Shown piece by piece: positions 125 through 54,809 of a DNA stretch of 64,000 nucleotides (positions are counted from its first letter, which is position 1; every line of letters begins with the position of its first letter). This DNA comes from Balamuthia mandrillaris (Eukaryota; Discosea; Longamoebia; Balamuthiidae): the NCBI GenBank assembly GCA_031835245.1, contig JAVKOQ010000258.1, forward strand, positions 1 to 64,000. The letters are read 5' to 3'. Both the position numbers and the translations under genes were made by a program. The notes under the pieces are model-generated. The model saw nothing but the letters and a program-made list of their open reading frames with translations. It was not told where the DNA came from and searched no databases.

Positions 125-2044
125 ATGAGCTGCTCCATGAGACGAACCAAAGTGGTGGTGTGCGGCTCGGACAGCAATGCCCACGTCCTCATGGTGGAGA
201 TCGGCAAGAGAGAGGCGGAGGTGGAGCTGAACGTGCTGGTGGCCACCGAGGAGGAGGCCAAATGCATCCAACGAGCCTTGCAGCAGAACAAAAACGTGGA
301 GATGTATTACCGAGGGCAGGTCTCTTACGGCAGGCCCTCTGTGGTGAGCAGCGACGCAAAGGCCGTTATTCCTGGGGCTGACGTTGTCCTAAGTATGTTC
401 TTGCTTCTTGTTCTTGTTTGCAGTTTTGTTTTCTTCTATCTGGAATGTAGTTAACACTCTTTATTGTTTTTTTTTATTATCTTATTTATTTTTTTGTGCA
501 CGCAAGTAACGGGGTTGGCAAGCAAGAGACAGGCGGTGCTGACAGCCATTGCTCCGTTTCTCAAAGAGGGAGCCATTTTGGCAGCCATTCCAGGACAGGT
601 TTGAAGATACTCTTTCCTTCAGTGTTTTTCTCTTTCTTCTCTTCATTTGATTTCATCTTCCGTTTTTTCCTCCGTTGACGCGATTTCTTATTGTTGTTTA
701 CATAGGGTGCATTTAACCTACGTGCGTTGGGTTTGTTAGGTCCTTCTGCATCACATGACAAAATCATTGTTGGCTTCAGTTATCTTCCTTTCGTACGTCG
801 CCTCTTCTCTCTTTCTCTCGCTCTTTGCCGTTTCCATACCCTCTCCTTGTTTTTTGCTTCCTTTCTTCGCTCTCCTCATTCTTATTGTGTATTTATTTGT
901 GTTTAGCAATCAGTTTTGTTGGAAATGGGAAAGCGAGTGGAACTAAAAGGCTACAAACGAGAGGTAGGAGTTGCTGCAGTTCCTTCTCTCAAATCCGACG
1001 CAATGGCTACCCTATTTTCCAACCTGCTCAGCTTCATTTCTGTCAAACCTTTGGGAAGTTACTTGAACGTCGCTCTTCATCCAGCCAATCAAGTCATTCA
1101 TCCCTGTATCATGTATGGGCTCTTTCGTCAGTTTCGAGGCACGACGACACACAAAAGCAGCAACAAATACAAAATGAAGGCAAAAGAAGACGAAGAGGAA
1201 TTGGAACTCGGAAGTGAGATGAGTGAAGATGAAAGCTTTGAAGAGAAAAACGAAGATGACGTGACGAAGAAAGGATATCCTCAGCCGCTGCTTTTCTTTC
1301 AAAACGTGGACGAGTTTACGGCAGATGTTCTTACCGCAGTCAGCGACGAAGTACAAGGCATCAAGTACACCCTGGAAGATCGGCTCTCTTTGAACTTGCA
1401 TGCTGTTCCTACCCTCGAGAACATGATGAGAGAAATGTATAAAGGTATTCTTTTCTTTTTTGTCGTTTCACTTATTTGTTCTTTTATTGCCCTTGTCGTT
1501 TATTCGCTCATTCGTTACCAAATCGTTGCGTTGGTTTTTAAAAAAATAGATGAAATACAAGACAATAGCACGTTGTTAAGCATATTCCGAACGAACCGTG
1601 GTTATGATGGGCTTTATGCTCCGATGGTATTCAGGGATGGAGCCTACTTCCCAGATTTTACTCATGAATATATGACGGAAGATGTTCCTGTATGTATCTT
1701 TCATTTTTTTCCCATTTTCTTCTGTTTCTCATCGTCCAAAATACTACCACAAAGTATGGAATGTGTTTTCTGAAAGGACTTGCTGAAATGTTGGACCTAT
1801 CCACACCCCAGATGGACACTGTTATTGAATGGGTACGACGGCTTTTCTATTCTTCCTTCTTTGTGTTTGATGATACACAATCTTAAACGTGGAACGAACC
1901 AATGGCATGTTGCTCTGACAGGCTCAAACGAACATGAACAAGGAGTACATCATCAACGGAGAGTTACGAGGCAGAGATGCAGAGGAGACCGGGGCACCTG
2001 CCTTCCTTGGCTACACGCTTGAAAACTTGCTTTCTCAATTTTGA
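125..2044 (+). CDS. Opine (octopine/nopaline) dehydrogenase-like enzyme, about seven exons
   Basis: The start at 125 places a Rossmann-type strand (KVVVCGSDSNAH) at the N-terminus; exon 1 ends near 393 after GADVVL. Exon 2 (about 505-599) reads in frame to AAIPGQ, and exon 3 (about 706) gives GAFNLRALG. This matches the 'LPGQGGF' region of the octopine/nopaline dehydrogenase family. The exon from about 907 carries ANQVIHPCIMYG, corresponding to the family's catalytic N...HP segment in its C-terminal domain. Further exons (1550-1690, 1755-1830, 1921-2044) end in TGA. Family members reductively condense an amino acid with a 2-oxoacid using NAD(P)H. The substrate cannot be told from sequence. 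An acidic insert (about 1165-1265) is unusual. Exon joints at about 1690/1755 are less certain than the rest. Confidence 0.72.
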
Positions 2045-2194
2045 GCCTTGTTTTCCTTCACTCCTTCTCCTCCTTTCTTTTTATTGTAAAGTTTTAATGC
2101 AAAAATCGTTATACAGCACAGCGTCGACAAAAAACGTTTCACTTAAACTATTTTGTTGAAACGAAAACAAAAAGAAAAAGTGTTACCGAAGAAG

Positions 2195-3682
2195 ATGGAG
2201 GAGGGACGAGAGGACGAGAGGCGGAGAACGCACGGAAAGAAAGGCATAAAGACTAAAGCAACGATTCGCGACAACACCTACGATCGTCATTACGCCTCAC
2301 CGAAGCCCATTCTTTATTTTCCTAACGTATAGCTTGCTTGCTTTCTTTCTTTCTTTCTTTCTTGTCGTTTCTTTCTTGTTCTTTCTTCTGGTCGTTTCTT
2401 TCTTTCTTTTGGGTTGTTTTCATTGCTCTCAAACCAAAAAAAAAAAAAAAAAAAGGAGGCGGACGTGCCTTACTCTATCAACAAAGCGAAACGATGGGAG
2501 TTGGTGGAACAGCTTAAACAAGTTTGTCACACGTGTGAACATGCTCAGGAGGATGAACTACGGAACGGCGTCGCGGACGAAGGAAGGGAAAAGCACTGTG
2601 AAGAGGGCATACCTGACATCAAAGAAGTGATGGAAGTTCAACTTCGCGAAAGCCAGGACATTGGCGAAAAGTCTTTCAGGGTAACCTATTGAAACAAATC
2701 TCTCTCTTATTATATGCTTGTTTTTTTTTACGTTATTCTCTGTTGTTGTCTTCATCTTCTTCTCCGACTTGTTGTTATTCTTTAAGTGTTTCTTATTCAT
2801 CTTTCTTTTTGAAACTTAAAGTCCTTGGGAAGCAATGACCCATCTCATGGATACTTTCCAGGGGGATGCTGGGGCAAAGAGAAGGGAGGAAGGTATGTTC
2901 TCTCTTCTTTCATCTGTTTCGTTATTATCTCACCTTCAAAACAAAACAAAGAGATTTTGTTCGTGTAACAGTAACGTTGGGCGCTTGCAACGAGTGTCAT
3001 AACCCTAATGAGAACGTTTTTGCGTCCACAACAGCAACAACCAATGAAGGTGAAGTACAGGATGAAACAAAAGAACAACAAAAGGAGGCAAAACGTTTGC
3101 TTCGCAAGGAGCGAAACAAAGCGAAAGTAGAAAAGAAAGACTTGCACCGGAAACATCATGAAACAGCTGAAGAAAAAGAAGAAGCACACCAACACGAAGA
3201 AGAGGACCAAGAAGAAGAAGCAGACTGTGAAGAAGATAGCGAAGACGAGGTAGAAGAAACATTAGAAGGAATCCAAGTTGTGAAAACGCAAGAACGTAAA
3301 CTGGCTCAAGTGAAAGATGGAAGGGTAATCGTACAACAACCATTTGAAAAAGGCAAGTTTGCCATTTGGTTTGAATAGCGGAAGTGATCTCTCTAACTTT
3401 GTTACTAAAACAGGACAGTATCCTTTATATCGAGAAACCAACTGGAAGTACTCTACGCCTTGTAAAGGATGCCTGTATTCTTATGTATGTTGTTGGTCTA
3501 TTTCTCTTCTTGTTCTCGTTCTTCTTTTTCCTGATCTTTTTCTTTCCTTGACTCACCCATCGCAACTGTAGGGAGGCATTTGGCTAACAAAAGGCATGGG
3601 TGACAAGTCTAAAGGCAAGACCAAGGGACAACACCGCGTAAAACAAAACGAATGGAACTCTTACCTTCGTGGCGAACTGTAG
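2195..3682 (+). CDS. Unrecognised charged protein with several CxxC pairs
   Basis: I do not recognise this family. The proposed start at 2195 begins a basic N-terminus (MEEGREDERRRTHGKK) ending FPN before a GT donor at about 2325. Exon 2 (from 2456) has VCHTC. A small exon (2821-2891) has NDPSHGYFPGGCWGK. Exon 4 has GACNECHNPNENVF followed by a long Lys/Glu coiled-coil-like stretch (3040-3340). The next exons give STPCKGCLYSY and GGIWLTKG, ending TAG at 3682. The repeated CxxC pairs suggest metal binding, which is inference. The intron after PFEK uses a GC donor (gcaagt at about 3353) with AG acceptor before 3412, and only this choice keeps the frame open. No localisation signal is visible. 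Confidence 0.55.
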
Positions 3683-3701
3683 CCATTGTTCTCATTGCTT
3701 T

Positions 3702-3842
3702 GCTAAGAAGAAGAAGAAGAAGAAGACGAAGAAGAAGAAGAAGAAGAAGCAGTAGAAGAAGAAGAAGAAGAAGAAGAAGAAGCAAGAACAAGAAGAACAA
3801 GAAGAAGAAGAAGAAGAAGAACAAGAACAAGAAGAAGAGAAG
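3702..3842. repeat. AGA/AAGAAC purine microsatellite
   Basis: About 140 bp of almost pure purine triplets, mostly AGA with some AAC interruptions. It lies between the stop of the upstream gene and the SOD gene, so it is intergenic. Long Arg, Lys, Glu or Leu open frames across it are artefacts of the repeat. Confidence 0.95.
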
Positions 3843-4061
3843 AACATGCTCCTATTGATTCAAGCGCAAAGTTGGTTGGCTGGTGCCTCCACATCAGCTT
3901 TTTCCAAACAAAGTGGAAACCTACGTGTCACAACATTTTATTATTTCACCCAACTTTCCTCGAGTTCCACAATCAATCAAAAACAAAAAAACACAACGAA
4001 AAGATTTGGTTTGGACCGCCTCTCTCTCCCTCTCTCTCTGGTGTGTGTGAGGACTACGACG

Positions 4062-5352
4062 ATGCAACGAGGAACTCCAATGCTTAGGCGAGGCCTTTTC
4101 TCCACCTCTTCGACCCCCAGATCTCTTGGTGGCACCGTCTCGCGTCCGCAATGGGCATCCAGCAGAAGGCCCTTCGCCTCCTCTTCTTGGTCAACCTCCT
4201 CCTCCTCCTCCAGGTTCGGCGGTGGCAGGGGGTGGTGGTTGGCTTCGAGCAGAGGCGCTTTGCCGGTGGTGTTGACTGCTGTTGCGGGCGGCGCTGCAGC
4301 TGCCGTTGGTCTTGCGTACTACAACCTTGACGAAACCTCCAGAAAAGTTCATGCCGCTGAGCACAAGGTGAACATTTATACTTTCTCTTCTACTCAGATT
4401 CAAGAGCTTGCACACATTTTTCTTCCAAGCGAAACTCACCCAAAGGCGACCTTAACAGGAGTATTACCAGCTGCCAGAGCTGCCGTGGGGCAGGTCGGCG
4501 TTGGAGCCGCACATCTCCAAAGAGACCATTGACTATCACTACGGAAAGCACCACCAGGGCTATGTCAATAAGCTCAACGACATGATCAAAGGCACCAAAT
4601 GGGCGCAGGTTGACAACCTTCCTTCGTCTTCTCCCTCTCTCTGTCTCTCTCTCTCGCTCTGTTTGCCTCTGGTTCCACTATCTTCTCCTCTAGTATTTTC
4701 TCCACCTCTCTCTTCTTTGTATTGGTTTTCCTGTTCTCTGTTCACTTTTCTCTTCTTTCCTGCTTCTCTTCTCACTCATCTGTACAAATAAAACTCCCCA
4801 CTAAACAGGGTTCATTGGAGAAGATCATCAAAGAGTCCCCAGCGGGTCCTCTCCTCAACAATGCCGCTCAAAGCTGGAACCACAACTTCTACTGGCACAG
4901 CATGTCCCCTCTTGGTGGCGGCCTGCCCACCGGAGAGATCCGCAGCCTCATCCTGAAGTCGTGGCCCTCCTTCGAGTCCTTCAAGGACGAGTTCTCCAAC
5001 GCTGCTGGTGGACACTTTGGCAGCGGTTGGGTTTGGTTGGTGTACGACCCGAAGGATGACAAACTTCACGTGCACAGCACTCATGACGCTGGAAATCCGT
5101 TGCGAGATGGAACAGGCATTCCCTTGTTGACTTGTGATGTTTGGGAGCATGCCTTCTATATTGATTATAGGAACGCTAAAGCTGAATACGTGAAGGTATC
5201 TATTTGTTGCTCTTCTCCTTCTGTTCATGTTTTTTTAGCTGGATTGAAAAACAACCTGACAATGTTTATTAATGTACGAACAGGCTTGGTGGAACGTTGT
5301 CAATTGGAAGTTTGCCAATGATCAGTTGGCCAGAGCAAGAGGAAGGTTTTAA
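4062..5352 (+). CDS. sodB: Iron superoxide dismutase with mitochondrial presequence and membrane segment
   Basis: Dismutates superoxide to hydrogen peroxide and oxygen. Four exons: 4062-4367, 4459-4608, 4809-5195 and 5285-5352. The catalytic domain begins YYQLPELPW, has [14 protein letters not shown], the Fe-type signature [12 protein letters not shown] (Gln in the position that separates Fe- from Mn-SODs) and the metal ligands in [13 protein letters not shown]. The C-terminus [10 protein letters not shown] is typical. Upstream of the domain is an Arg/Ser-rich presequence of about 65 residues, then a hydrophobic Ala/Gly segment (about residues 73-95). This suggests import into mitochondria with an inner-membrane anchor, which is inference. 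The start at 4062 is the first ATG in frame with the presequence. Confidence 0.93.
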
Positions 5353-5484: not shown

Positions 5485-7300
5485 CTAAACAGCGTTGTTG
5501 GAGACCAAACTCACCAACCAACTGCTGAGCGAAGCCGCGCTGCTGCTTGGCACTGCGCAAACAAACTACAGTCAATCACTTAATTGCGGAGCAGGCAGGA
5601 ACGGTAAATAACGTACCAATGGTGGATACAACAGATGCGTAAGTACAGTATTCCTTGTAGTCTATCACGTTGTCTCCATCCTCATCCGTCTGTTTCACAC
5701 AAACACATAGCAGTCAGCAAACCAACAACAGAAGACACATGATAAAAGCGTACGGCAGCAAAGGTGGCGTTCACTTCAGCAGCATCCAAATATGCTCCCA
5801 CGGCTTCATACCACCGCTCAAAAGAGACCTTTCCTGTCTCATCGGCGTAGTCGTAATAGTCGCCGCAATACCTGACCTCGATCCTCTCCGCTTCCTCTCT
5901 TCCCGCTCTCGCCGCCACTTCCTCCAGGAAGGGCACCTTCATCGCGGACACGGAAATGGTGTGGTTCCCGTTCTGTTCGTTGGGAATGGTCGCGTTGGTG
6001 GAGTTTGTAGAAGGAAGGTCAACCACCCAGGAAGGGCAGCCCTCGCAAGGGTCGAGAGGGTTGGCGGTGTTGATGCACGCCCTGCGAGCACTGCACCAGC
6101 CACAGCCAGCATGCTCTTTGCATTCTTCGAAGGTTTCTATCCTGTTGCACTCCTCGACTGATTTTGTTTTGTTAGTTTAGCGGCTTGGCGGTACAAGGAA
6201 GAGTTCAGGTAAGGAAGGATACGACACGTACTCTCTCCCAACGTCTGGCAAAGGAACTCGATGGTGTTGGAGTACGACGAAGAGTCGATGCTGATCTGAG
6301 GGCAGAAGGAGATGCCCCTCATGGTCCAGAGGATGTCATTCAACAAGAGGCAGAACGCGTTGGGTCGGATCACGTCGCTGAAGAGGGAGGCACAGACGGA
6401 GATCTGTTTGCTGTCGTAGTCCCACTCGACCGTCACCTCCCCAGCGCCGATGTTGAAGGAGCGTTCCGAAGACTTTTCCTTCATACAGCCCAAATAGTCT
6501 GTGGTGGTGGTAGTTATTGCAAGAGACGGTAAAGAGAAGGCTGTTGAAAGAAAAAACTAACCGCCAAGTTCGATGGAAAGGTCGATGAGACGGTCTGAAC
6601 TGGTCTTCCCCAGCTTGATGCCCATGTTTACTCTCTGATACAAACCAAACGAGTCAGTGCCATTATTCACTTTGAAGAAACGAAGGAAGAAAGACAACAT
6701 ACGTCTTCACAAGGCGCACGGGTGACCTCGAAGCACAAATCAGGGGCAAAACTGAGCATGTCGGCAAGGTTCAAGACCTTGGGAGCTTCTCTCTGAGCCC
6801 CCTGGATGCTGGCGTCCAAGTTCAGCTGAACCGTTGGCAAAGCTTTGACCAAGTCTGCCAGAGGGATGGCTACGGTGAAGTCGTCCATTCCCAAGAACTC
6901 CACCACCTCTCCGAGCTCGCCTACCGGCACGGTGACCTCGTAGTTGCCCACGACGGAGGCGAGCATGTTTCCCAGGTTGAGCTTGACGGAGGACATGTCC
7001 ACCAGGGAGAAGAGGTTGTTCGTTTGGAGGTCCATTTTGAAGGGCACACAGACTGTTGGGTTTTGGTTGGAGTGTTCACCAGAAGCCAAAGAAAGATGGG
7101 TATGGGCTGACTGAAAGAGTACCTGAGCATGAGGAAGCCATTTGTCCGGCTGGAGCAGCGCACTCCCAAACCGCCTCCTCCGGGCCTCCTCCGCCACCCA
7201 GTGCGAATTCCGTGGCGTCGGCAAAGGGCGATGCCGCCGCACTCCTGCCAACGATGAGCGTTACCGATAGCACCGCAGCAAACGCCAACACAGCCCTCAT
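5485..7300 (-). CDS. Secreted PSI-domain and EF-hand protein, paralogue A
   Basis: Begins with a clear signal peptide (MRAVLAFAAVLSVTLIVG, Ala-rich cleavage region). Exon 2 (about 7053-6705) carries an amphipathic region with paired Cys. Later exons (about 6640-6555, then about 6500-6230) hold further Cys. The exon from about 6175 contains a plexin-type PSI cysteine pattern (EECKEHAGCGWCSARRAC). Possible N-glycosylation sites (NSTNATI) and a degenerate EF-hand (YADETGKVSFERW) follow. The last long exon has a canonical EF-hand loop DEDGDNVIDYKEYC. The order of domains matches the gene at 7561 on the opposite strand, so the two are paralogues. The final exon ends TAG at 5485. The choice of the last acceptor (about 5560) is uncertain. 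Function unknown; probably extracellular or luminal and calcium-binding. Confidence 0.72.
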
Positions 7301-11181: not shown

Positions 11182-12839
11182 ATGATGGAAGCGCCTCAAG
11201 CACACGATGAGGAAAGTAAACTTGAGAGCGCTGGGTCAAAAATGCAAGCCATCCTCCTCGCCCATTTGGTGGTTTGGGTGAAAGGCCTTTCTCTGTCCTT
11301 TACAAACGACCGGCTGAGCGAATATTTCGGCTTTTGCGGACGCGTCATCTTTGCTTGTGTGGACAAGTACCAACAATTCTTTCCTTGTCTCCTTGTTCCT
11401 CTTCCTTCTTCTTCTTCTTCTTCTTTTTTCTTTTTGTACTTCTTCTTCTTTCTGATATGACATCTTTAAAAAAACAAGACAGGAAGGAGGTTTACTCTAC
11501 TTTGAAAGAGCCAATGCAGCAAAGACGGCTCTGCTCATGGACGGCGCAGTGGTGGACGGCTGTCGCCTCTCCGTCGAACTTCTCTACGCCTCCTCTCCTC
11601 TTTCCTCCTGCCCGAAACTGTTGCAGAGCTTCGCTGCGTTTCTCTCAGCTCCCCCTCTGCCTCCTCCTCCTTCCAACTACACACCCAGCAGCACCAATGC
11701 CACTAGCACGATTTGGACACCTTTTGCAGAGAGCTCATCTTCTTCATCTTCATCGTCATCTTCATCAACTTTTGTGCCTGCACATTATGTTTTGCCGGGA
11801 GCAGAGACCTCGCTCGACAATTCCCCTCTGGGAACACGCCACCATAAGCAGCATCCAACAAATCCTTTCTTGGAGGAGGATGATGAAGGAAAAGAGGATG
11901 AGGAGGAGAAAGAACGAAAAGAAGAGAAGGGAAAGAGAGGGCCGATGGTGGCATTGGTGCGGGACGAGGCGGCAGAGGAAGAGGCGGAGCTTGAGTACAG
12001 CGAGTCGGTTAGCTTTGATGCTCCTAACGCACGCCTCATATACAAGGCCAAGCCCATTCTCTTCAACTTCAGAGATGTTGCCTCCTTTGTGGTTACTGGG
12101 TACCTTGTTTCTGTTCTCTGTTTGCTCGTTGCCTTCTCTGCTCCTCTCTACTCTTTTATTTGCTTCTCTGTTCGTGCTACTCCTTTCTTTGTCTCTCTTA
12201 GCGGTTATCTCCTCTCTTTGATATGTGTTAACAAAAGATGGATTTGAAATATCTACAGTAAAGAGAAGAGTCCACTAAAAAGCGGGCAGGTATATCGTAG
12301 CGCATGTCTGTTTCGTGGTGGCAATGCAGTGGATCGTGAAGACGCGTTTGCAGCCATTTCCTACCTTCATCAACACTGCGGTATCAAAACTATTATTGAC
12401 CTTCGCTCCTCCGTAGAGAAAGGGTAGCATTGTCGTTCTTTTTATTTCTCTTTGCTCTCTTGTTCCTTTCGCTATTCCTCTACTTAACCTCTTTTTTTTT
12501 CCATTATTTATTACAGAGAAGATCCATTCGATGAGATTGCAGAACAACTCTATCCAACGGTCCCAGTACCATCAAGTGTAACGGCCTCTCCATTAGCTAG
12601 CAACAAGCCAAAACGATCCATTCTGTCCTCCCTTATTGGAGGTGAATACACATCAGGAATCCGAACGGACCTCAACATGCAGTACAAGCGCTACAACATC
12701 GACCTGGTAAACACCAACTTGAAGCTCAAGGGCCTGTTCTTGCCTTCTTCCTATAGCACCAAACTAAAGATGCTCACTTCGGCTTGGAACAGCATTCGCA
12801 ATCCGTCTTCCAACGATCTTTCCGAGGAGTTAAACAGTA

Positions 12840-33100: not shown

Positions 33101-34818
33101 GAAAGAGGTGACAACCGTGAAAGGAGCGATCAGGAGTCACTGGCGGGAAGAGACGCCCCGCGTTGAGATAATAGTAGCGGCCGTCCGTGCCAAAGTGGCC
33201 TTCCCCGTCCACCGGGCCGTAGATTAACTTGGGCGTTCCTGTGGCTTCTTCTCGGACATAGTGGGCTTTCAGGTTCTATTATAAAGGGCAAGTTAATAAC
33301 GTGGTGCAGTGCTGGTGGTCTTCTCTCTCATGCTTTCACTTCTTTTTTTTATTTCTTTTTCTTTTTCTTGGTTTGCACTAATTTCGTCTAATCGATCATT
33401 TAAAAAAAAAAAAAAAAGAAAAGGGCTGAACGAATGGTTTGCCGCCTACCATCACTTTACAGGCCGCTTGCAGCTTCTTCTCAAACGTTTTATCGGCGGT
33501 GGTGATATGGTAGCCGCCGTCCTGGCTTCCATAGACTAACGTTTTCTTGCTGATGGGCAGTCTCGATGCAACTAACAACCGATAGCCCAGATAGTTAACC
33601 AGAACCACCAGCGGGAAGTGCAAGGCACTCACTCCGCAGGCCATCAACGCGTTCAAAGACTGGAAGTAGCCAAATGGAGAGAGTGAGAAGAGAGAGAGAG
33701 AAAGAGAGAGAAAGAGAGAAAGAGAGAAAGAGAGAAAGAGAGAAAGAGAGAAAGAGAGAAAGAGAACCTTCAACTCTTGTGCTGCAGCTTTTCTGGAAAG
33801 AAGGAAATAGTTAGCAAAGCTAAGAGAATGGAGCAGCAAAGAAAAGCTTCTTACTGTGCATAATCGTCAGTCTTATACAGGTGATATGTGGTCTCGCCCT
33901 CCGTGAAGCGGATTATTGTCTGTTCTGTAACAAATCTATTGCAGAAGAAGCAAGCTCGTGTCAAATGAAGAGAGGACGATAGAAAAAAAAATTCGCTAGT
34001 GCATACTTATTGTCCCTTTTTCCTTCAATGCCTTCTATCATGAGGCTTTTCATGGTCCTCTTCTCTGGTGGCAGGTCCATCTCTTCCACTATTTTCTTTA
34101 CAATTGGCTTGGCGGCAAGTATGAATCTGTGTTGGGGTGAATGTAAGGTGAAACTGGGAAGGTAAGGAAAAGATGGCGAAGAACAAGCGTACCTATCTAC
34201 AAGTTGCTGAAGGGCAAGATTTCTCTCTTTGGCTTCTTCAGGAGTAGTGATGGGTCGTTCCAGCAAAACTTGAAAGCGCTCATTCCAGATAAACGTATCG
34301 AAGTACCTTTTGGCCGTTTCCTCACTTGTAGGCAAGGGGTCCGCCTCATCTTCTGGGATTGGAACGGCATCGTGGCCTACCTTCACGAGAGTAGAAGAAG
34401 GCAAAGTAAACGTTCCCATAGAAACGTTAGAAGTTGCAAGGTTTGACGCAAGATCTTCTCCCACGCAGTAGTAGGGAGAAGGGCGTTTGCAGTGCTCAGA
34501 GGACGATTCTTTCTTTTCGTGATCTTTTCCGTTTGAAGCTTGGGACAACCCGCTTCCTTCTTCCGAAACTCCTTCCGTATGCTCTGATTCTTTTGCTCTT
34601 AGTTTCTCTTCATCGCTTTCGTGAGGCTGTTGCGGTTTAGGTTCCTCAGGGAGATAGAAAAAATCGTTCAGAAGAGAGGGGGAAGATTCGTCGTCCGCCT
34701 GAGCGTCCAACTCATCTCTCCCTTTTGGTGCTTTCTTTTTAACATTCCTGTAGTATGGATCCACTTCATAGCGATAGTCCACATAATCATACTTGAAATG
34801 TGACCGAGAGCTGTTCAT
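27120..34818 (-). CDS. Clustered-mitochondria (CLU) protein with TPRs, a CRIB domain and ER/K helix
   Basis: Very large multi-exon gene. Exon 1 (34818 to about 34190) ends in the CLU segment FIWNERFQVLLERPITT; later exons give FILAAKPIVKKIVEEM and DDYAQ/ELK/SLNALMACGVSALHFPLVVLV. The exon from about 33275 gives GPVDGEGHFGTDGRYYYLNAGRLFPP, diagnostic of the CLU family, which governs mitochondrial distribution and binds mRNAs of nuclear-encoded mitochondrial proteins. Across an intron at 31885-31814 the frame continues (DDIEE to IGVTAKAAHPL) into kinesin-light-chain-like TPRs (about 31760-30700). A coiled coil and Ser-rich linker follow, then a CRIB motif, PTGFRHQGHIGWDPT, continuing after a short intron (29180-29107) as AGFEVNNIPADWKKLF. 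The C-terminus is acidic with an alternating Glu/Arg helix (about 27640-27400), ending at 27120. The one-gene reading depends on the two intron joints. Confidence 0.82.
29532..29590. repeat. Coding GAA/GAT repeat encoding poly-Ser
   Basis: Triplet repeat inside the CLU gene, in the linker upstream of the CRIB domain, that translates as a run of about 20 Ser on the minus strand. It is part of the open frame. Confidence 0.85.
31546..31572. repeat. GA microsatellite in CLU intron
   Basis: GA run on plus inside an intron that interrupts the first TPRs of the minus-strand CLU gene; CT on the sense strand. Confidence 0.85.
33678..33767. repeat. GAGAAA-type purine repeat in CLU intron
   Basis: About 90 bp of GAGAGAAA units on plus in an intron of the minus-strand CLU gene; the sense strand is pyrimidine. 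Confidence 0.9.
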
Positions 34819-35365
34819 GGCCCTCTTGCTATTGAACCCTCCAAACTAGACGTCAAGCGAAAGGAGTTCACAGATAGGTGGTAGCGTTATTTTTTTACGT
34901 CAACGGTAACAATTAAAAGTGCTTTTTTTTGCTTCCTTTCAGTAGTTTCTCGGGGGGTCACCATGCATGGAAAACCTTCTGGACTTGGTGCTCGTCAGTT
35001 CTGCCTTGAGATTACACGGCATTTTTGGGAGGGGTTCTTCGGACATTATGCTGCCTTGCACAAGTATTAGCCTTACATAGACAAGTTCGGAGAAACCTTG
35101 GCGTACACTTATTGGATCGGAGTTAGGTTAACCTCCTGGTCAAGTCCTGCTCCTATTATGCTGTCCCAAATTTTCATTGCCGCCGCTTTTCCGCTGGTGC
35201 GCCTTTGTTTTGCTGTCACGCTCTTCCCTTTGAGTTCTGTTCTCGCCTTTGTTAAGGTTTTCATGGCTTCATTGCGAGGAAAATAGTTTTCTTTTAAGTA
35301 GGTGGAGTAATAATGAGGTTTTGAGAGGTGGAGTACGAAGACACTTGAACTCTTACTGCTCCTTT
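34819..35365. other. Intergenic region, no gene supported
   Basis: 547 bp upstream of the CLU gene and downstream of the EF-hand gene. A 62-codon open frame (35098-35286, plus) is hydrophobic but lacks a recognisable family or neighbours, so I leave it out. It should contain the CLU promoter. Confidence 0.5.
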
Positions 35366-35871
35366 TTACTCAGCTTTGGAAGTTGCTGAGGAAGAAGAAG
35401 ATGATGAAGAGGATGATCCTCCGTCTGTGTCAAGTTTCATCGGGCCTTGCAGAGGCATACCCAGTTTCAGCCTGTGCTCCAATCCCAACAGCCATACACA
35501 CACGTTGCGGACATAACGAGCAGTGCCTGCTGTATCCCAATGGCAGAACAGTTTGGTGAAGCCACAATCCACCACGATGCGCCCTTCATGATCTTTGATG
35601 TCCGGATAATCGGCACAGAGCATGCATGGGTGGTTGTCGGAGGAAGTGGCAAGGATCTTCAGATTCTCGCCTATGGACTCTGGATAGCTGATGGTGATAC
35701 CCTCGAAGAGGTTGGTAATGCCCGATGTCAACAAGTGCCTTCCAAATTGTTGCCTCTTGTTCGCATCTCCAACTGACAGTGATTTACCGCCCGAATCGTA
35801 TCCTTTGTTACAGATGCAGCAATAGGTCAGCGAAAAGGAAAACGAAGAAGGAAGGCAGAAAGAAGCCAAAG

Positions 35872-35910
<39 letters not shown>

Positions 35911-37276
35911 TAAGTGGGAAGAAATTGTACCCGTAATAACAGTGCCAGGCGAAAGCTTCTTTAGGACTTCATTAGCGGTAGCAAAGTAAGGGGCGTTCTC
36001 CGCCCAAACGGCGAGACCTCTACCGGACTGGTGGTGGCGCCAACAGGCCTCCGCCACCGCAGGAGTATGTTCCGATACGGTGCGTGTGCTAATGACGAAG
36101 CCGATGTCATTGGCCGGCAAGTTCTTTGCAAAGCCCTCTTCGCTGGTCGTCACATAAACTCGGAAGCCCTTTGTGTTGTTATAGACAGTAAGCATTACCA
36201 TTCGAACGAGAACATCACAAGCAGAAGAAGAAGAAGAAGAAGAAGAAGAAGAAGAAGAAGAAGAAGAAGAAGAAGAAGAAGAAGAAGAAGAAGAAGAAGA
36301 AGAAGAAACTGTTGCTACTGCTTGTTCAAAAGTCTTACCTTCTCACCCAATGCCTTTCCAGCATCCTTCATGAAAGTTTCCTGTTGAAAGAAAAGCCACG
36401 CGTCAGCAAATGTTGGGTAAGGGCGCAATAACAACGGGAACTAGAAAGAACCTCGCTGAGCTGGTCAGGACAAAAGAGACCAACAAGCACTGAGAACTGT
36501 CCAAAGGCTCCTTCATGGCCAAGATCGTACTCTCTTCCTTGCGGGTTGGAGAAGCTGTCCCTTGGAGCAGCGTGGATCTGGTCATGCATACCGGCATAGT
36601 TGGTATAAAAGTCGGAGATGCTAAGACCTCGAGTTAGAGAGACCGGTCCGGAAGGTCCTTTTGCGAGCTTCAGTTGGCTATCCGCTCTTTTCAGCCTTCG
36701 TGAAGGAGGAGCTTGGGCTTTTGGAGCCTGAGGCTTTTCTTCCTCCTCTTCTTCTTCTTCTTTCTTCTTAGCCTTTCCTTTGTCTTTGGCGGATTTGGCG
36801 GGTGAGTGGGACGTTTTCTGCTTCTTTGTTTGCTTTTGCTTTTCCTTTGCTGCCTGCTTTTCTTTTTTCTTCTCTTCAGCCTCCTCCTCTTTGGTGGTTT
36901 TGACCAACCTCGCCATAAGGTTGATGAACTCATCCAACTCGATGGTGCCGTTCTCATCCTTGTCTGCCTCTCGCAGGATGATTCCGGCTTCGTGAGGTCC
37001 CACCCTGAAGCCGAGGTTCCTCAACACAGCCTCCAGCTCTTCAGGAGTAACGTGTCCGTCCTTGTCGCCGTCAAACATGTTGAAGACCATGCTGAACTCG
37101 GCTTTTTCTTCAGCAGAGAGCCGTTTGGCCTTCTCCCCTATTTGCACAGGTTGCGCATTCTTGCTTGCTTTGGTGGCCTTTTCCAGGAGTGGCTGAATAG
37201 TCTCCCTTGCTTTTTGTTTGTCAGGGTCAGCTTCCACCTCCTGTAGGTTTCTTTTCAAGCTTTTGCTTCTGGTCTC
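35366..37276 (-). CDS. EF-hand protein with a C-terminal alpha/beta domain of unknown type
   Basis: Begins METRSKSLKRNLQEV at 37276; an upstream in-frame ATG at 37330 would add 18 hydrophobic/basic residues. Two adjacent calmodulin-like EF-hands: FDGDKDGHVTPEEL and ADKDENGTIELDEF, both with full calcium ligands. A long Lys/Glu linker follows (about 36880-36700). The second domain spans several exons: FGQFSVLVGLFCPDQLSE, then GFRVYVTTSEEGFAKN-PANDIGFVIS, CWRHHQSGRGLAVWAENAPYF, and DHEGRIVVDCGFTKLFCHWDTAGTARYVRN. That alternating pattern looks like a glutamine-amidotransferase-type or related Rossmann-like fold, but I cannot assign it. C-terminus Ser-rich, stop at 35366. Introns near 35810-35930 and 36200-36335 hold purine repeats. 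Likely calcium-regulated and cytosolic. Confidence 0.75.
35872..35907. repeat. GA microsatellite in intron
   Basis: GA run on plus in an intron of the minus-strand EF-hand gene; CT on sense. Confidence 0.9.
36220..36307. repeat. GAA trinucleotide microsatellite in intron
   Basis: About 28 GAA units on plus in an intron of the minus-strand EF-hand gene, so TTC on the sense strand. Confidence 0.95.
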
Positions 37277-37622
37277 CATTCCTGTGGCAGCGAGAAGCAC
37301 AAACCAATTTTTTTTGCTTTTTCTCCACATTGTGTTCAGGGAAGAGCATTACTCTCTGACAAAAGAGAGCATCGGGGTTTAACCGCGAACTTTATTTTAA
37401 ATGAAAGCCAAGTCAGCGACTCATGTCACTGCTTAGTTACAAGCTGTGGAGTTTCATGTCCCCGCCCAAGTCCTAGGACTAAGGGCATGCTGTATGTACG
37501 TAAAGGACACTTGAAGTATTGTGAGAGGCAAACAAGAAGGCAGAAAGGGAGAAGAAGTAAGTCAAAGGTGAAAAGCGAAGAGCAAGGACCTTTCATTCCT
37601 CGTGGAGTGGGCGTTGATTTGT

Positions 37623-38420
37623 CTTTCAACCATGGTAGTAAGCACACAGGCTATATTGTCTAGAGGTGCTATGTTGTTGCTGTTGTTGCCACCGGGTCGA
37701 TCCACGGAGCTGCGTACAAGCCTTACAAGCCAGCATGATAAGTGCTGTACCTTTGGCCACCTGCGTGGGGTTGTGAGGTTGGTTTTTGGAGGCAAGAAGG
37801 GGATTGCGGCTGACCACTTGCTGCACTGCATAGGCACAAAGGAACTTTTTGGCTGAGTGTTTGATGGCTCCAAGGCTGCTCATGATGAAGGAAAACACTG
37901 CAGAGATGGCTCTGGCTCGGATTGCCGGCCTGTACTTGGTCCGTTTTCTGTCAAAGGCATCCTGGAGCACGTCCTTCATGGAGGTCAGAGGTCGAGAAGG
38001 TGGAGCTTTGCTTCGCCAGGCGGTGACAGAGCAGTTGATGGCCTCAGCATGAGCCTGCAGGAAGAGGTCTGCTCGCAAGGAGGCTAAACGTCTTCTACTG
38101 GTAGTGGTGATGGTGGCAGTAGAAGAAGAGGAAGAAGAAAAGGTCAGAGTGTGCTCACCTGCTCATGCAGCCTGAGGATGTTCCACAGCTGCTTCACCAG
38201 CACATCATGTCGGGCAGTTCAAAGAAGACAAAGATGGGCAGCAAAGGCAGTGAGTGATAGCATCACTAAGGTTCACACAGCAGAGTGGGCAGGTAGTGTG
38301 CACCTGGCTGGGGCTTTCCATGAGCTTGCTGGCCAGCACCAAGTAGAGATCGTCCTTGATGAGGAGATGCGGACTGCTTGCATCCATCAGCTGGTACCTT
38401 AGGAGACCGCTTGCAGGAAT
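37623..38420 (-). CDS. Unrecognised protein, fragmentary, probably several exons
   Basis: No family recognised. Open reading on minus gives RYQLMDASSPHLLIKDDLYL (about 38400-38340), then a possible exon QLWNILRLHEQ (about 38190-38158) ending at a GTGAGC donor. After an AG at about 38090 comes a long frame (RRLASLRADLFLQAHAEAIN) running to a TGA near 37626, with FDRKRTKYRPAIRARAISAV and KACTQLRGSTRW. Joints are tentative and no start codon is convincing, so this may be a remnant. It lies between the EF-hand gene and the recombinase relic, in the same orientation as both. It could belong to an older mobile element or be a degraded host gene. Confidence 0.35.
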
Positions 38421-38554
38421 GCAGGGCGAAGAGAATCAGCCTTGATTTAAGGCTACCCTTTGCCGAACAAGTATAAGGTATATCATAAACATAAATACAT
38501 CCAAAGGAAGAACAATACTTGAAGTATTTGCTACAATAAACAGTTTGGTATTTC

Positions 38555-39241
38555 ATTAAGATGTAACAAAGTTATTGAGGTGCAAAAATGTGGAACCAAG
38601 ATTGTTGGAGAATTCCGTGAGGAGATTGAGCCATTTATCATAGTGTTTGGCAATCTCCAACCAAGACCATTCATCATGCAAGTGCCAAGTGACAAGTCTA
38701 CGAATTTATGGTGCCTGCCAAGCAATCCATTGCTGATGAGCATTCTTCTGATATTTGAGTCAACTGGATAACAATTGTTGTTGCAGAAGTGCTCTGCAAA
38801 CTCGTTGTCATCATGGTGTTTGTTCTTTTGAGTCATGATTCTTGTCATCGTCATCATCATTGTTGTTTTTGAGGAAGCCATCAGGAGAAGTAGGTGAGGA
38901 TGGCTGCTCTTGAAGAGGGGTAAGGAATGCTTTGTGAATGGGTGATCCATTGACCAACTTGGGAAGTATAGGAGCTACAAACTCAGCCACTAGCTCATTC
39001 AAGCCACTGAAAAAGCTTTGTAGAATGCCAGAGATGTGTTGATAGCACAGCAGGCAATGAATATTGGGCCAACAAAGAGGAGATTTGTTTTTGGCCTCAT
39101 AGGTGGCTGCAGCTTCAGCTAGCACATCCTTATCAAACTCATCTGGATGATTTTCTACCCAAGCAGTACAACATTCAAGCCACAAGGAGCGATAAAATTG
39201 TATATGTTGATCTTTGGTTGGTAAATCTGTTCGTTTCATGA
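38555..39241 (-). pseudogene. Decayed copy of the telobox recombinase C-terminal region
   Basis: The exon from about 39240 (FMKRTDLPTKDQHIQFY) aligns with the intact recombinase at 41208-40930. Both have WV followed by a charged helix, a central W-N core, ISGILQSFFSGLNELVAEF versus IASLLSGNYDLLKELVDEF, and GSPI at the same place. The open frame stops at 38811. Downstream, in another frame (38747-38555), a Myb remnant is readable: AHQQWIAWQAP, a stop at 38706-38708, then IRRLVTWHLHDEWSWLEIA and DKWLNLL. These correspond residue by residue to NHRSRLPWKEQE, KRLVRLHLEEGASWIDIA and DKWRNLL of the intact copy. The loop and first part of the telobox are deleted. So this is a frameshifted, stop-bearing relic. 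Its 5' part is cut at telomeric repeats (39419-39436). Confidence 0.72.
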
Positions 39242-39277
39242 ACCTAAAGAAAGTGTAAAAGAAGAAGAGAAAGAGAA

Positions 39278-39309
<32 letters not shown>

Positions 39310-39365
39310 TGAGAGAAAGAGAGAGTAAGAGAGAGAATGAAAAAGAAAGAGAGAAAAAGAGACAA
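39240..39365. repeat. AGAGAAA purine repeat
   Basis: Purine-rich repeat on plus, between the relic exon and the TTAGGG run. It lies in what would be the intron preceding the relic exon and is pyrimidine on that gene's sense strand. Confidence 0.85.
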
Positions 39366-39418
39366 AAACGAAGTGTGAATGAATGTCAAAAGAAGAACAA
39401 ATGGACCAAGACTAATCA

Positions 39419-39436
39419 TTAGGGTTAGGTTAGGGG
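39419..39436 (+). repeat. Short interstitial telomeric repeat (TTAGGG/TTAGG)
   Basis: Reads TTAGGGTTAGGTTAGGGG on plus. Same orientation as the runs at 40070 and 43829. Confidence 0.9.
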
Positions 39437-39633
39437 ACTATTACCATTTTTGGTAAGAGCCTTTCTAGATCACATTTAAAGTTATGATCTTGAACAAAGT
39501 ATCCTTTTGAAGGGGAAAAGCTGTAGATAATGGGATTGTCAACCATTTTGCATGTGAATACAATGTGATGAAGCATTTGAAGCTGCAAAAGGCTGCACTG
39601 ACTGCACCATTTTGGCACAGCAGTGCCAATCAA
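39430..39633 (-). pseudogene. Cys-rich short frame, possible N-terminal exon of a recombinase relative
   Basis: Starts MIGTAVPKWCSQCSLLQLQM and continues HHIVFTCKM, a CxxC-x12-FxC pattern loosely like the N-terminal zinc finger exon of the intact recombinase (CKQC...LFCSREC). The coding read meets a GTAATA donor-like site immediately before the telomeric run at 39419. It could be the 5' exon of the same decayed element as the relic at 38555-39241, with the middle exons lost. The frame does not join cleanly to that relic exon, so the link is tentative. Confidence 0.3.
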
Positions 39634-40069
39634 ATCTAGGACTTTGTGAATTGTTGGCAGAAACAGCAGCCATTATGGAAAAATGTGATAGGATAGCAAT
39701 TATTATGATGTATTTCAAGTAAAAAATAAAATAAAAAAGGTTTTTGTAGAATGAAATGTGTTCTTTCCAACAAACTTACTTTTAATAACAGTAAATGCTA
39801 TGATGCGGAGAAATTAATTTTTTGAACCTCAAGCGGAATTTATCCCAAATAATCCATCATTCAAAAATTTGGCATTTTTTGGCATTTTTGGCTTGAATAC
39901 CAATAAGCAGAAAAAAAAGTAAAAGAAAGAAAAAAGAAACTGCAAGTGTGTGTGTGTGAAAGGGGATAAAGGGAAAAGTGGCCACTTCCTCCAAGGAAAA
40001 AAAACAAAAAAGAAAAAGTCAGGTGATAGTGGGCTTACAACCAAGTGCCAAGGTAAAGTATTTTATATG
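39634..40069. other. A/T-rich non-coding segment between telomeric runs
   Basis: Contains long A and T runs, a TG microsatellite (39945-39958) and no supported gene. By position it may be the 5' leader of the decayed element. Confidence 0.4.
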
Positions 40070-40087
40070 TAGGGTTAGGGTTAGGGG
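40070..40087 (+). repeat. Short interstitial telomeric repeat (TTAGGG)
   Basis: Reads TAGGGTTAGGGTTAGGGG on plus and forms the left border of the segment carrying the recombinase gene. Confidence 0.92.
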
Positions 40088-40614
40088 CATGAACTTGAAA
40101 CCCTGATCAGCAGCGCCTCCCCCCCTTTGCTCGCCTCCCCCAAAGGACGTCGTTGCGCAGAGCAGCCAGGCGGGTTTCCAACGCCACCAATGGGAGGCCC
40201 TGAATGCAAACCACGGGAGAGATACAAGGCAGATAAGGAGGTTTTCGGCACGGACTCTGTTTCAAACAACACACCCATAGGCCGTGTTTTCTGAGGAAAA
40301 AAAAGGGCTTTGATCCCCTTTGGCTTTGTGGAATGACATCCAGGTTTGTGTAAAGCGCAGGAAGGAGCAGATCCTTTCAACAACTGCTCTATTTGCCACA
40401 ACAAGACAAGACAAAAAAAAATACCAAAACAAAAAGACAATTGGATAGAAAAACTGGTAAATGTTATTTATTTAGGAGGAAAAAATGATGAAAGAAAAAA
40501 AAGAAGGCTTGGACATTGAAATCAAGGGCAAAAAAAAAAAAAACGTCCCACAACGTAAAAAAAAAAGAAATGAAAGAACCAAAACCCCTAATCAAGTCCT
40601 TTGCCTTCGTTTTT

Positions 40615-43547
40615 TCATTCTTTCCTAGGTTTTAAGTACTTGGCCCGAATATTTTCCACTGAACCAAGCTTTTGCAACAGATTTCTCCATTTATCTTTGC
40701 AATCCACATTGGTTCTTCTTTGCTCAGGGAGCTGTTGAGCAATGTCGATCCAGGAGGCTCCTTCTTCCAGATGCAAACGAACCAGTCTTTTGGTTTCTTG
40801 TTCTTTCCAAGGCAGACGGCTGCGATGATTGGAGCCTTGCAGCTTGATTCTCTTGGCCTCGATGCATTGTTTCAAGTCCGAGCCATCTTTTCTTCTCTTT
40901 CTGGTGGCCACCTGCTTGATAGGGGAGCCTTCTTCCAAGGTCTTGTCCACAGGAGCTGTAAACTCATCCACCAACTCCTTCAACAGGTCATAGTTCCCTG
41001 ATAACAAACTGGCAATGTGTCTGCGGGCCACAATCTTGTTGACATTGTTCCAACGTACGGGGCCTTCATTGCGAAGCTCATAGTCCCTGGCTTCCTTTTG
41101 CAACTCCTCTTGCAATTCCTCTTCATGAGTCCTCACCCAATCATTGCTACAACAATACCACAATGCATTGCATAGCTTCTGATTTTGAAAGCTTGAAAGA
41201 TCTTGTCTTTGCTTGAACCTTTGAGATATACAAAACAAACCAAACAAACAAACAAACAAACAAACAAACCAAACAAACCAAACAAACAAACAAACAAACA
41301 AACAAACAAACAAACCAAACAAACAAACAAATTCTTAAGTTAGCTCTCTTTTCAAATACAACAAAAGGAAAATAATAATAATAATAATAAGGAAAAAAGA
41401 AAGTTTGAAAAAAGTATAAATGCCTTTTAGAAACTAAGACTTGAAAGCTCTCATAATTACTGTCTGCAGACCATTGGGATTGCAAGGGAGTGCTTAGTTC
41501 ATGAAAGGCCTCCTTGGTAATCAACTGAGCATCTATATCTGAAGTAGAGCCAGCAGGTGTTACTAAATGAGTGCATACAATGGCTCTCTTCAAGGTATCT
41601 TTTACATAACGATGTTGGGACCTGCCGTTGGGAACCCAACCAGCAACCTGACATTTCAATGCACACACAACAATAATGGAAAATAAATAAAGAAAAAAAG
41701 AAGATATAAAAAAAAAAAAAGGTGAGCTGGATTTCTTTGAGAAAAAAGAAAATAACACAAACTTGAAAAAATCAATCACTTACCATTGCTGTTTTGTTGA
41801 GCACATCCACGCGTGTGTTGAGATTGTTAAGACCCTCTTTGATCAATGCACTGCATAAAAAGCCGGCACGCAAGGAGTGAAAGGAGAAAAGATATGGAGG
41901 ATAACCCGCTGCTTTTGCTCTGCTACGAAGACGCATGTTCAAGGCATCCCTATCCCAGCCCCACAAAAAGGTCTGTCGTTGTTCCTCGGTGAGATTCCAT
42001 TGGGCCAAATCTTGCAAACAAAGGTCATGTTTGCTTTGTAAATGAAGAGCCAACCAGTAAACAAAGTCTCCAATGATGCCAGAGTTTATGTCTGTGGTAG
42101 AAGTGTTGGTCATAGAAGGAGGGGAATGGATATAACCTTCAAAGGTTATATGGTGATCCCAACCTTTGCACTTTGGTTAGTTCTAGTCCAATTGTTTTTT
42201 TTCAGGCAAGCACACTCAATAATACAAACCTGAAGGTACTCCCTTGGTGACTTGATGTCTAAGCTTGAGAAAGTACTTGCCCTCCTGCTCAGCATTAGGA
42301 CGAAGCTCTCGAATGTCATCCAAGCGAATGTTGGCAGCAGTTATAGCTCGAGCTCCTGTGTAAGCACTGTGAAGCCAACAACTAGCTTCAGCAGCCCTGG
42401 AAACCTTGCCCAAAGGAGTAGTTGCAATGATATGAATCACATCATCACGTAAGCAAGCATCTCTTTTGGCTTGACGTTGTTGGCATTTGGGGAACTCCCT
42501 TTTGCATTTTTGAGCTGCTCTTTGAACCCTGTCACGGATTTCTCGTGGGACCTCCTTTCCGGTTTTCTCCTGGTGAATACGATACAAGCTGGCCATAATA
42601 ACATCTATCACAGAAGAGAGGGCATATTTGACATGTTTTACCAGCCATTCCACAAAGCTCCCTGGATGATGGACACTAGGATTCAAAGGAAAGTCTGGCC
42701 ATCCATATCGACTACAATATCCACGCCAAATAAGGTGAGCCCATGCATGTTTTCTCAAGGTAGAAGGACTCCATCGACTGCAAGCAGCAGTTAATTGTGC
42801 AATTAACTCAGGAGTTAAGCTATCTAACATTTGAAGAGCCCTTGGAGGTCTAGCCGAAGGACTTGTAGAACACAAAATCTCCAAATCTTAAAAAAAAAAA
42901 AGAAAACAAAGCAATAAAAAAAAAAAGAATAAGGATTAAAATAAGAAAAAAAAAAAGAATTAAAAAAAATATATTTATCTACCTTTTTCTTTTTCCAAGT
43001 CGATTCGTTCCTTTAAATGAGTAACCGTTTCATCATCTTCATCTTCCACCAAGTCAATGAAAAGACTTGTAGATGACCTTTGGTTAGATTGTTGAGGTTC
43101 CTCACATAACCATTGCAATTCATGTGTTTCTCTATCTTTTTCAGGCTCTTCATCTGTAAGACTAATAACCAAGATCAAACAAGTAATAAAAAATCTAGTT
43201 TAAAGATAAAATAATTAACAACTACCTTGAAGAAGCCCTAATGGTTGTAAATGATGAATTTGAGGGTATAGTTTCAACAGAAGGATCTACACAAGCCTCT
43301 CGAGGCAACAATAATGGATCTAATTCTTCCACGATGACAACAGAACTATACCAAGAAACAAAAATAATAAAGAAGTTAAAATAAAAAGTATAAAAACTAA
43401 AAATAATAAAAATAAATACTAAAATAATTAAAACAAAGAGACATACCTTTTGCATTCTCTGGAACAAAATAGTTGAATAGAAGAACAAGCAATAAAAGAC
43501 TTATTGCATTGTTTGCATCTTCTTAAAGAAGATAACAAATAAGACAT
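40615..43547 (-). CDS. Tyrosine recombinase with zinc finger and telobox Myb domain
   Basis: Seven exons: 43547-43447, 43345-43226, 43161-42983, 42886-42240, 42170-41784, 41647 to about 41430, and about 41208-40615. All joins keep the frame; about 750 residues. The N-terminus has a zinc finger (RCKQCNKSF-LFCSREC). A helical core-binding region is followed by the catalytic fold. It has Arg in SAYTGARAI (codon 42348-42350), a Lys in LRHQVTKG, HSLRAGF (His 41877-41879, Arg 41868-41870), Trp in VAGWVPNGRS and the Tyr nucleophile in HRYVKD (41606-41608). This is the full R-K-HxxR-W-Y set of active tyrosine recombinases. After a domain shared with the nearby relic comes a Myb/SANT repeat (LPWKEQETKRLV-SWIDIAQQL) whose third helix, VDCKDKWRNL (40678-40707), matches the telobox of telomere-binding proteins. 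No stops or shifts seen, so possibly active. Confidence 0.85.
40660..40815 (-). other. Myb/telobox DNA-binding domain of the recombinase
   Basis: Coding sub-region. Two conserved Trp (LPWKEQE and ASWIDIA) and the third Trp in KDKWRNL give the Myb spacing. The preceding RRTN plus VDCKDKWRNL differs from the plant telomere-binding form (NVDLKDKWRN) at one residue, Leu to Cys. In TRF and plant telobox proteins this helix contacts the TTAGGG-type duplex. Confidence 0.8.
41236..41333. repeat. AAAC repeat in recombinase intron
   Basis: CAAA/AAAC units on plus, about 95 bp, within the last intron of the minus-strand recombinase gene (GTTT on the sense strand). Confidence 0.92.
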
Positions 43548-43828
43548 AAGGATAAAAAGAATCTAAACAAGAAAAAAAAAAGCTGAAGTTAAACAAATGA
43601 AAAAAATAAAAAAAATATTAAAAGGAATAATTGTAACAAAAAAAAAAGCTAAAAATCAAAAATAAACAAGAAAAATAAAAAAAAAAGAATCCAAAAAAAT
43701 TAAAAACATTTGATTAAGAAAATAAAAAGAAAAAAATAAAAAAAAATTTAAAAAACAGAAATATCAAAAATATTAAAAATATTTAAATTTTTTCAAAATA
43801 TTAAAAATATTAAAAATATTTAAATTAT

Positions 43829-43993
43829 AGGGTTAGGGTTAGGGTTAGGGTTAGGGTTAGGGTTAGGGTTAGGGTTAGGGTTAGGTTAGGGTTAGGTTAG
43901 GGTTAGTTAGGTTAGTTAGGGTTAGGTTAGGTTAGGTTAGGTTAGGTTAGGTTAGGTTAGGTTAGGTTAGGGTTAGGTTAGGTTAGGGTTAGG
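43829..43993 (+). repeat. Telomeric repeat array (TTAGGG grading into TTAGG)
   Basis: 165 bp. The left third is about eight perfect TTAGGG units. The rest is mainly TTAGG with scattered TTAGGG and TTAG. The G-rich strand is plus. The array touches the A/T-rich 5' leader of the recombinase element on the left and, on the right, sequence that looks like the intron before the first visible BEACH exon. Confidence 0.97.
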
Positions 43994-44070
43994 CAAGATG
44001 TGCGTCACCAAAAACCTTTCTCTGGATACCTTTATTATTTTATTATTTCCATCATTTATATGCAAACTAG

Positions 44071-54809
<10,739 letters not shown>

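Follow-up and report, generated by a model that had tools for sequence, protein, structure and literature searches.

The window analyzed here, positions 1 to 64,000 (64,000 nucleotides) of contig JAVKOQ010000258.1 of the amoeba Balamuthia mandrillaris, contains an element (40069 to 43826, minus strand) whose only recognized gene encodes a putative tyrosine recombinase (YR) with a C-terminal, telobox-like Myb domain. The element, which we call A, belongs to one of at least three related YR-Myb families, namely, A (window), B (approximately 4.3 kb), and C (at least 7.8 kb). We read it as a member of a group of mobile elements, with a YR and a telobox, whose copies spread by joining onto chromosome ends, an interpretation to which we give an even chance. 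Attachment to chromosome ends, with an anatomy like that of HeT-A or Terminons, is what the elements display, while the way of joining and the role of the YR and telobox in it are what we infer. Throughout the genome, the same element ends follow many unrelated flanks, the elements are oriented outward, and some cut ends continue directly with telomeric repeat. A first-pass annotation, made from the letters of the window alone, had proposed a compact YR element with a telobox that would be a DNA-element counterpart of telomere-specific retrotransposons. The compact architecture proved to be multicopy and tied to telomeric repeat, with no reverse transcriptase recognized in A or B, and the proposed counterpart role gained support.

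Element A encodes a predicted recombinase with a telobox-like Myb domain

The gene lies on the minus strand (40615 to 43546, 5′ limit approximate) and corresponds to the public annotation QOT17_018219, a hypothetical protein of 703 amino acids (P0003) with readable GT-AG introns. The spliced YR gene with intact R, HxxR, W, and Y residues that the first-pass annotation had described was confirmed. In P0003 numbering, the set comprises R287 in TGARAIT (42348 to 42350), K322, H413 and R416 in HSLR (41868 to 41879), W448 (41636 to 41638), and Y458 (41606 to 41608), all on the minus strand; from general knowledge of YRs, we take these residues to have the catalytic roles. All six are invariant or nearly so across an alignment of 11 proteins. 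No integrase profile of Pfam, PHROG, or NCBIfam matched the window protein; among the 11 family members, a PHROG integrase profile matched four (best, 7.1e-6) and Pfam Phage_integrase matched two (best, 0.0024). The C-terminal Myb domain of the window protein, also noted at first pass together with its third helix VDCKDKWRNL (40678 to 40707, minus strand), was significant by profile (2.5e-10). Domain profiles back the Myb domain strongly and the predicted YR modestly, only in some relatives.

Telobox proteins of the TRF/TRB type have a VDLKDKWRN-like third helix, which is matched by VDCKDKWRNL in families A and B and by LDLKDKWRNL in the metagenome protein P0006. Eight metagenome relatives in total are 33 to 41% identical to a family B query and have the active-site set in common. 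The Myb domain, and with it the YR-Myb domain order, was present in seven of them (in one slightly below the Pfam cutoff) and missing in P0004, and the third helix reads VDCKD in four; the pairing is thus conserved outside this genome. Seven pattern matches in IMG/VR were considered as further relatives, and none was confirmed.

Related families in the Balamuthia genome

Searching the B. mandrillaris genome with exon 1 of the window gene gave 112 matches, corresponding to 71 loci on 65 contigs. Two loci belong to family A (the window and contig C436), 20 belong to family B, and the 49 others are mostly members of the longer family C. Family B shows 48 to 55% protein identity to the exon 1 query, and eight distinct copies (nine loci, two of which represent the same copy) have an uninterrupted frame across the YR core, with a synonymous divergence (dS) of at most 0.018. 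The introns between the YR and the C-terminal parts are kept in A, B, and C, so that a spliced RNA is not an obvious template. When ten frames of A and B were compared with Pfam, the YR-Myb gene was the only gene recognized, and neither a reverse transcriptase nor a DDE transposase was matched; four frames of the partly read family C likewise gave no match to either enzyme. Family C has additional, low-complexity-rich frames toward its outer side (C90, 1 to 8300). Known domains were sought in these frames and rejected, as all Pfam matches were of a low-complexity type and below the curated cutoffs.

A further group, D (for example, C188, 91700 to 96200), reads toward the contig end and may represent a second YR type. 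Its protein has a C2H2-like N terminus and a YR-like C terminus in which we tentatively read the motif LHSFNTHETHY; because no integrase profile matched it, its assignment as a YR is tentative. Five tandem repeats of approximately 150 bp lie near the inner end. Homologs of D were found in Balamuthia only, with divergent relatives in C100, C587, C769, and other contigs.

A fixed inner end follows arbitrary flanks

Each group has a conserved inner end on the 3′ side of the gene: GGGGCATGAACTTGAAACC in A, GGGGCGRGTACTCTTAAACC in B, GGGGCGGGTACTCAGAACC in C, and a GGGGAYTATTACC-like sequence in D. The sequence TTAGGGTTAGGGGC was found at 86 places in the genome (reversed control, 0), and the family C inner end was found at 83 places, with 82 identical sequences and one variant. 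Thirty-one of these 83 places are outside the TTAGGGTTAGGGGC list and thus lack two perfect repeats. Distinct junctions were read at 76 inner ends (C, 55; B, 16; A, 2; D, 3) and, in addition, at a B end in C395. In the 73 junctions of families A to C, arbitrary flanks meet the fixed element end, where the TTAGGG count ranges from none to about four; none of the 73 showed a longer telomeric array, even when imperfect repeats were included. The perfect telomeric match before GGGC was 15 to 16 nt long in A, 12 to 18 nt in B, and 0 to 16 nt in C; the 12-nt match is that of C395, and the other 16 B junctions have 14 to 18 nt. Near-identical copies confirm the point at which the elements begin. Over 4,339 bp, beginning precisely at the TTAGGG run, the B copies of C52 and C511 are 99.9% identical; their flanks differ. 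The B copy of C16 matches that of C52 at 99.9% over 4,020 bp from the same TTAGGG start. The A copy of C436 is 99.2% identical to the window copy over 3,758 bp, begins no more than one base away from the corresponding position, and has another inner flank.

Uninterrupted related sequence was available for 27 junctions, 25 of which overlap their counterpart by no more than 2 nt, most overlaps being −5 to +2 nt. Four overlaps (−16, −13, −13, and −10) are distorted by imperfect repeats, and the remaining ones above 2 nt are a self-match (4) and a family C target whose counterpart reads GTTAGG (6). No target consensus was visible among the 27 junctions. Since the counterpart filter dropped sequences with a longer telomeric repeat, this set alone cannot exclude arrays as targets. 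Hammerhead and other Rfam motifs were considered at the element ends and discarded, as the window stretch and five loci gave only weak matches below the gathering scores. Within the TTAGGG arrays of C9, C65, and C511, we also observed ACTCTGGGCTATAAGGAG, which may be a very small relic of the end of another element.

Elements point outward and stack head to tail

Orientation was counted for the 92 of 117 distinct inner-end places that lie on contigs of known length. All but one (91 of 92; C, 62 of 63; A and B, 29 of 29) point to the nearest contig end, as do all 52 on contigs of at least 100 kb. On contigs of known length, 53 of 55 YR matches (one per locus) likewise read outward, the exceptions being C12 and one copy in C223. 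Since contigs may break in repeats, the telling test is provided by contigs that start inside an element and run into its outer flank. Such an arrangement was seen in C12, where a YR fragment is followed by a TTAGGG array (11925 to 12064) and then by more than 400 kb of other DNA. Among the readable outer ends, those of five B copies, the window A copy, and the C12 stretch reach telomeric repeat. The five B copies (C52, C72, C75, C511, and C756) come from eight B regions that were fetched whole or nearly so, and TTAGGG lies at the contig end itself in C52, C72, C75, and C756 and within approximately 20 bp of it in C511. Telomerase is encoded in the genome, with a TERT-type (telomerase RNA-binding) domain at two places.

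The elements stack head to tail, each being trimmed on its outer side before the next one starts. In C4, family C starts at 11296 and 9216 are followed by three B starts near 3300, and C108 contains three C starts spaced 219 and 346 bp apart (within 565 bp); in both contigs, the earlier pieces are inner ends whose outer side was cut off. Two B starts each were found in C572 and C763 and two C starts each in C500 and C31, and the order C then B recurs in C16, C68, and C72. A B copy in C572 is cut in a GAA tract with telomeric repeat directly after it, and C763 ends at the same cut; C572 also shows a diverged element end after an 89-nt array. The 699 bp compared, which extend up to the C52 junction, show no difference between C52 and C24, and C24 continues for approximately 800 bp before its own element. 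The two contigs represent a single chromosome end in two forms that were cut back to different positions. A reverse transcriptase partner sharing the family C end was considered and rejected: the one reverse transcriptase examined beside an element, that of C55, belongs to a Ty3/gypsy pol. The matches listed contain many more reverse transcriptases in the genome. The C element junction of C33 lies in a copy related to the C55 pol (93.7% over 111 bp).

In the window, a probable former terminal stack adjoins a broken host gene

The TTAGGG borders noted at first pass are present on both sides of element A, but they differ in kind, one being a short end and the other a long degenerate array. On the inner side, GTAGGGTTAGGGTTAGGGG begins at 40069 and forms the short telomeric end of the element (nearly three TTAGGG); telomeric repeats followed by GGGGC occupy 40069 to 40088 (plus strand) and are joined to a broken D fragment. 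On the outer side (gene 5′), 167 bp of mixed TTAGGG and TTAGG units (43827 to 43993, plus strand) are read as a former telomere. With up to one mismatch, TTAGGGTTAGGG occurs 16 times in the window versus 0.22 expected from shuffling.

The view of the segment as an isolated insertion was not upheld, as it adjoins fragments of C and D elements on the left and part of a host gene region to the right of 43993. From the left, a host flank (33800 to 37280) is 100% identical to contig C395, which we take as the other haplotype; C395 (43,931 bp) ends in a family B element with its inner end at 39902. A repeat that is 71 to 78% alike in four other contigs (C33, C637, C294, and C302) follows at 37375 to 38433. 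Next is the inner (gene 3′) fragment of an older family C element (38478 to 39418, minus strand), 84 to 90% identical to many family C inner ends, and the open reading frame at 38811 to 39437 represents the C-terminal region of its recombinase gene. The D fragment (39419 to 40068), an inner one, begins with TTAGGGTTAGGTTAGGGG and is cut in the first repeat of approximately 150 bp; along the full query it is 93 to 97% identical to seven other contigs, and an eighth matches in part. Beyond element A and its array, the host gene part (43994 to 46300) has uninterrupted forms in C320 and C426. The window lacks the 1,500 bp that lie to the left of the break in C320, and the flanks of the window copy are not contiguous in the uninterrupted forms. 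The window copy is therefore a terminal stack (repeat, C fragment, D fragment, A, and array) joined to a broken host gene, and its internal position reflects either a former chromosome end fused to a break or an assembly join. C426 carries a deletion of approximately 40 bp, next to ATAACC and within a few bases of the start of the window fragment (43994), as if two homologs had broken at one site. On C436, to the right of the A copy (5830 to 6264 of the fetched stretch), a PTS EIIA gene (Pfam, 1.5e-24) that needs TGA to be read as Trp indicates mollicute-like DNA, either contamination in a chimeric contig or transferred DNA.

A possible DNA-level route to chromosome ends and its alternatives

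Each element has a fixed inner end (gene 3′ side), where GGGGC is preceded by none to about four TTAGGG; on the gene 5′ side, its outer end passes into telomere. Joining to chromosome ends could proceed as follows. The telobox Myb domain would bind TTAGGG at the element ends, and the YR would recombine the inner and outer TTAGGG, releasing a copy as a circle with a TTAGGG joint. This copy might then cap, or be copied onto, unprotected chromosome ends, joined through its own TTAGGG end with little or no homology needed. The window stack would later have become internal by fusion to a break in the host gene. The conserved active site and telobox in distant relatives, the open B frames, and the kept introns favor such a DNA-level cycle acting on the element's own TTAGGG ends. 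In its full form, a telomere-capping DNA transposon whose telobox-guided YR makes TTAGGG-ended copies that heal broken chromosome ends, the idea is tentative, and we lean against it. If true, this telomerase-bearing amoeba would have a second, YR-based way to cap or extend its chromosomes, and a class of mobile element would exist that targets chromosome ends rather than cut sites.

Several observations weigh against the joining of YR-telobox elements to chromosome ends as we read it. Ten of the 20 B matches have one or more stop codons inside the searched exon. Family A is known from two copies, both now internal, and that of C436 adjoins bacterial-like DNA, a possible mark of a chimeric contig. 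Some copies are interstitial (the window, C436, C12, C19, and perhaps C223), and 9 of the 92 inner-end places are separated by more than 15 kb from the contig end to which they point, the DNA beyond having been read for two. Of the eight fetched B regions, three (C16, C367, and C142) break off within the element. The outer ends of family C are for the most part unread, with contigs stopping inside C, and in C55 the Ty3/gypsy pol (1900 to 4400) is part of the DNA beyond the C end. Myb profiles do not separate the TRF type from the c-Myb type (TRF1, 34.8 bits; c-Myb repeat, 35.4 bits). No excised or circular form was seen, and catalysis by the YR is a prediction from its residues. The narrow range of inner repeats could also stem from template-like priming.

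In an unlikely alternative, telomerase or another reverse transcriptase would extend the chromosome 3′ end on element RNA, a route suggested earlier for the Terminons of rotifers and for telomerase RNA fragments at breaks. The gene-sense strand ends with ...GAGTACTCGCCCC(TAACCC)n, the complement of the telomeric G strand; the RNA route deserves respect because a template on which a TTAGGG 3′ end is extended would finish in this way. Telomerase is present, the targets are arbitrary, and the repeat phase varies. A reverse-complement telomeric 3′ end, repeat-capped outer (5′) cuts, and head-to-tail arrays match the excerpted description of Terminons (PMC6431247), and telomerase RNA pieces at breaks are described in another excerpted report, in which telomerase copies RNA at breaks (PMC2246262). 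Against this route stand the introns kept in all three families, the failure to recognize a reverse transcriptase in A or B, the lack of a hammerhead among the Rfam matches, and the Ty3/gypsy nature of the one reverse transcriptase examined beside an element, although many others are present in the genome. Passive spread of subtelomeres like that of yeast Y′, in which break-induced replication copies another chromosome's end with the YR gene as a passenger, is rather unlikely but fits several findings: it predicts the same polarity and telomere-outward order, telomerase is present, half of the B matches have an internal stop, and some ends seem to be duplicated from a single stack, as in C572 and C763, which agree in the spacing of their two B starts and in the position of the cut. 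It is at odds with the 76 distinct junctions, with near-identical B copies that start exactly at the TTAGGG end next to unrelated flanks, and with a YR active site and telobox kept in distant relatives while some B frames are open.

The first-pass annotation had favored site-specific YR insertion into TTAGGG arrays with the crossover at TTAGGG. We consider this very unlikely and, on the inner side, largely refuted: none of the 73 inner junctions of A to C shows an array exceeding about four repeats, the targets with known uninterrupted counterparts are arbitrary, and the inner flanks of the other copies are nontelomeric, an outcome which that annotation had itself named as speaking against its proposal. 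What remains in its favor is that A and five B copies are bordered by TTAGGG at either end, together with the diverged element end behind the array of C572, the C target counterpart reading GTTAGG, and a precedent in nimaviruses (PMC10871703, excerpted). Least probable of all is that these are ordinary interior insertions at which contigs broke inside the repeat, the terminal location being an assembly artifact. Contigs do often stop inside C elements, and interstitial copies exist (C12, C19, and the window). However, breakage should yield about as many ends composed of the outer part and outer flank, and among the 55 YR matches these amount to C12 only, plus the one turned copy in C223; moreover, B copies reach TTAGGG at or close to the contig end.

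Comparison with known systems

To our knowledge, elements specialized for chromosome ends are known mainly as retroelements. Drosophila HeT-A and TART are retrotransposons that stand in for telomerase and show polarity and terminal stacks; both features are shared by the Balamuthia elements, whose host encodes a TERT-type domain. Yeast Y′ elements are subtelomeric repeats between telomeric tracts that have no YR and spread by recombination. The position between telomeric tracts is common to both systems, and the YR is present only here. No telomeric YR element of Balamuthia was described among the open-literature matches listed.

According to the excerpted literature, Cryptons are YR DNA transposons of fungi, oomycetes, and animals (PMC3212892), and CryptonV families in microsatellites have been reported (PMC8869645). 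Like the elements described here, Cryptons are compact, with a YR that carries an extra DNA-binding domain as the only recognized enzyme and with short direct end repeats (PMC3212892). The Balamuthia elements differ in having no fixed short target, in their telobox Myb, and in their stacking at chromosome ends, and no YR-Myb protein searched matched the Crypton/DUF3504 Pfam profile. TTAGGG flanks A and five B copies as a direct repeat of Crypton type would, yet the inner flanks are arbitrary and those of the window are not contiguous in uninterrupted forms. Endogenous nimaviruses provide a precedent for a link between a YR family and telomeric repeat, as they insert in (TAACC/GGTTA)n and share such a family; these are viruses of approximately 280 to 400 kb, repeat-flanked, with a C2H2 domain and no Myb mentioned in the excerpted report (PMC10871703). 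Similar in terminal anatomy are Terminons and endonuclease-deficient Penelope-like elements, with telomeric repeats at the inner (3′) end, repeat-capped outer cuts, and head-to-tail arrays; they encode a reverse transcriptase and have a 3′ hammerhead, and the excerpted account mentions no YR (PMC6431247). Inner telomeric repeats, outward polarity, and head-to-tail stacks were all found in the Balamuthia elements, and a reverse transcriptase was not recognized in A or B. Finding this terminal anatomy in a YR-telobox element suggests that attachment to chromosome ends evolved around another enzyme here. Whether recombinases can build or heal chromosome ends becomes testable, and the genome of this human-pathogenic amoeba offers a set of end-joining events whose junctions can be read.

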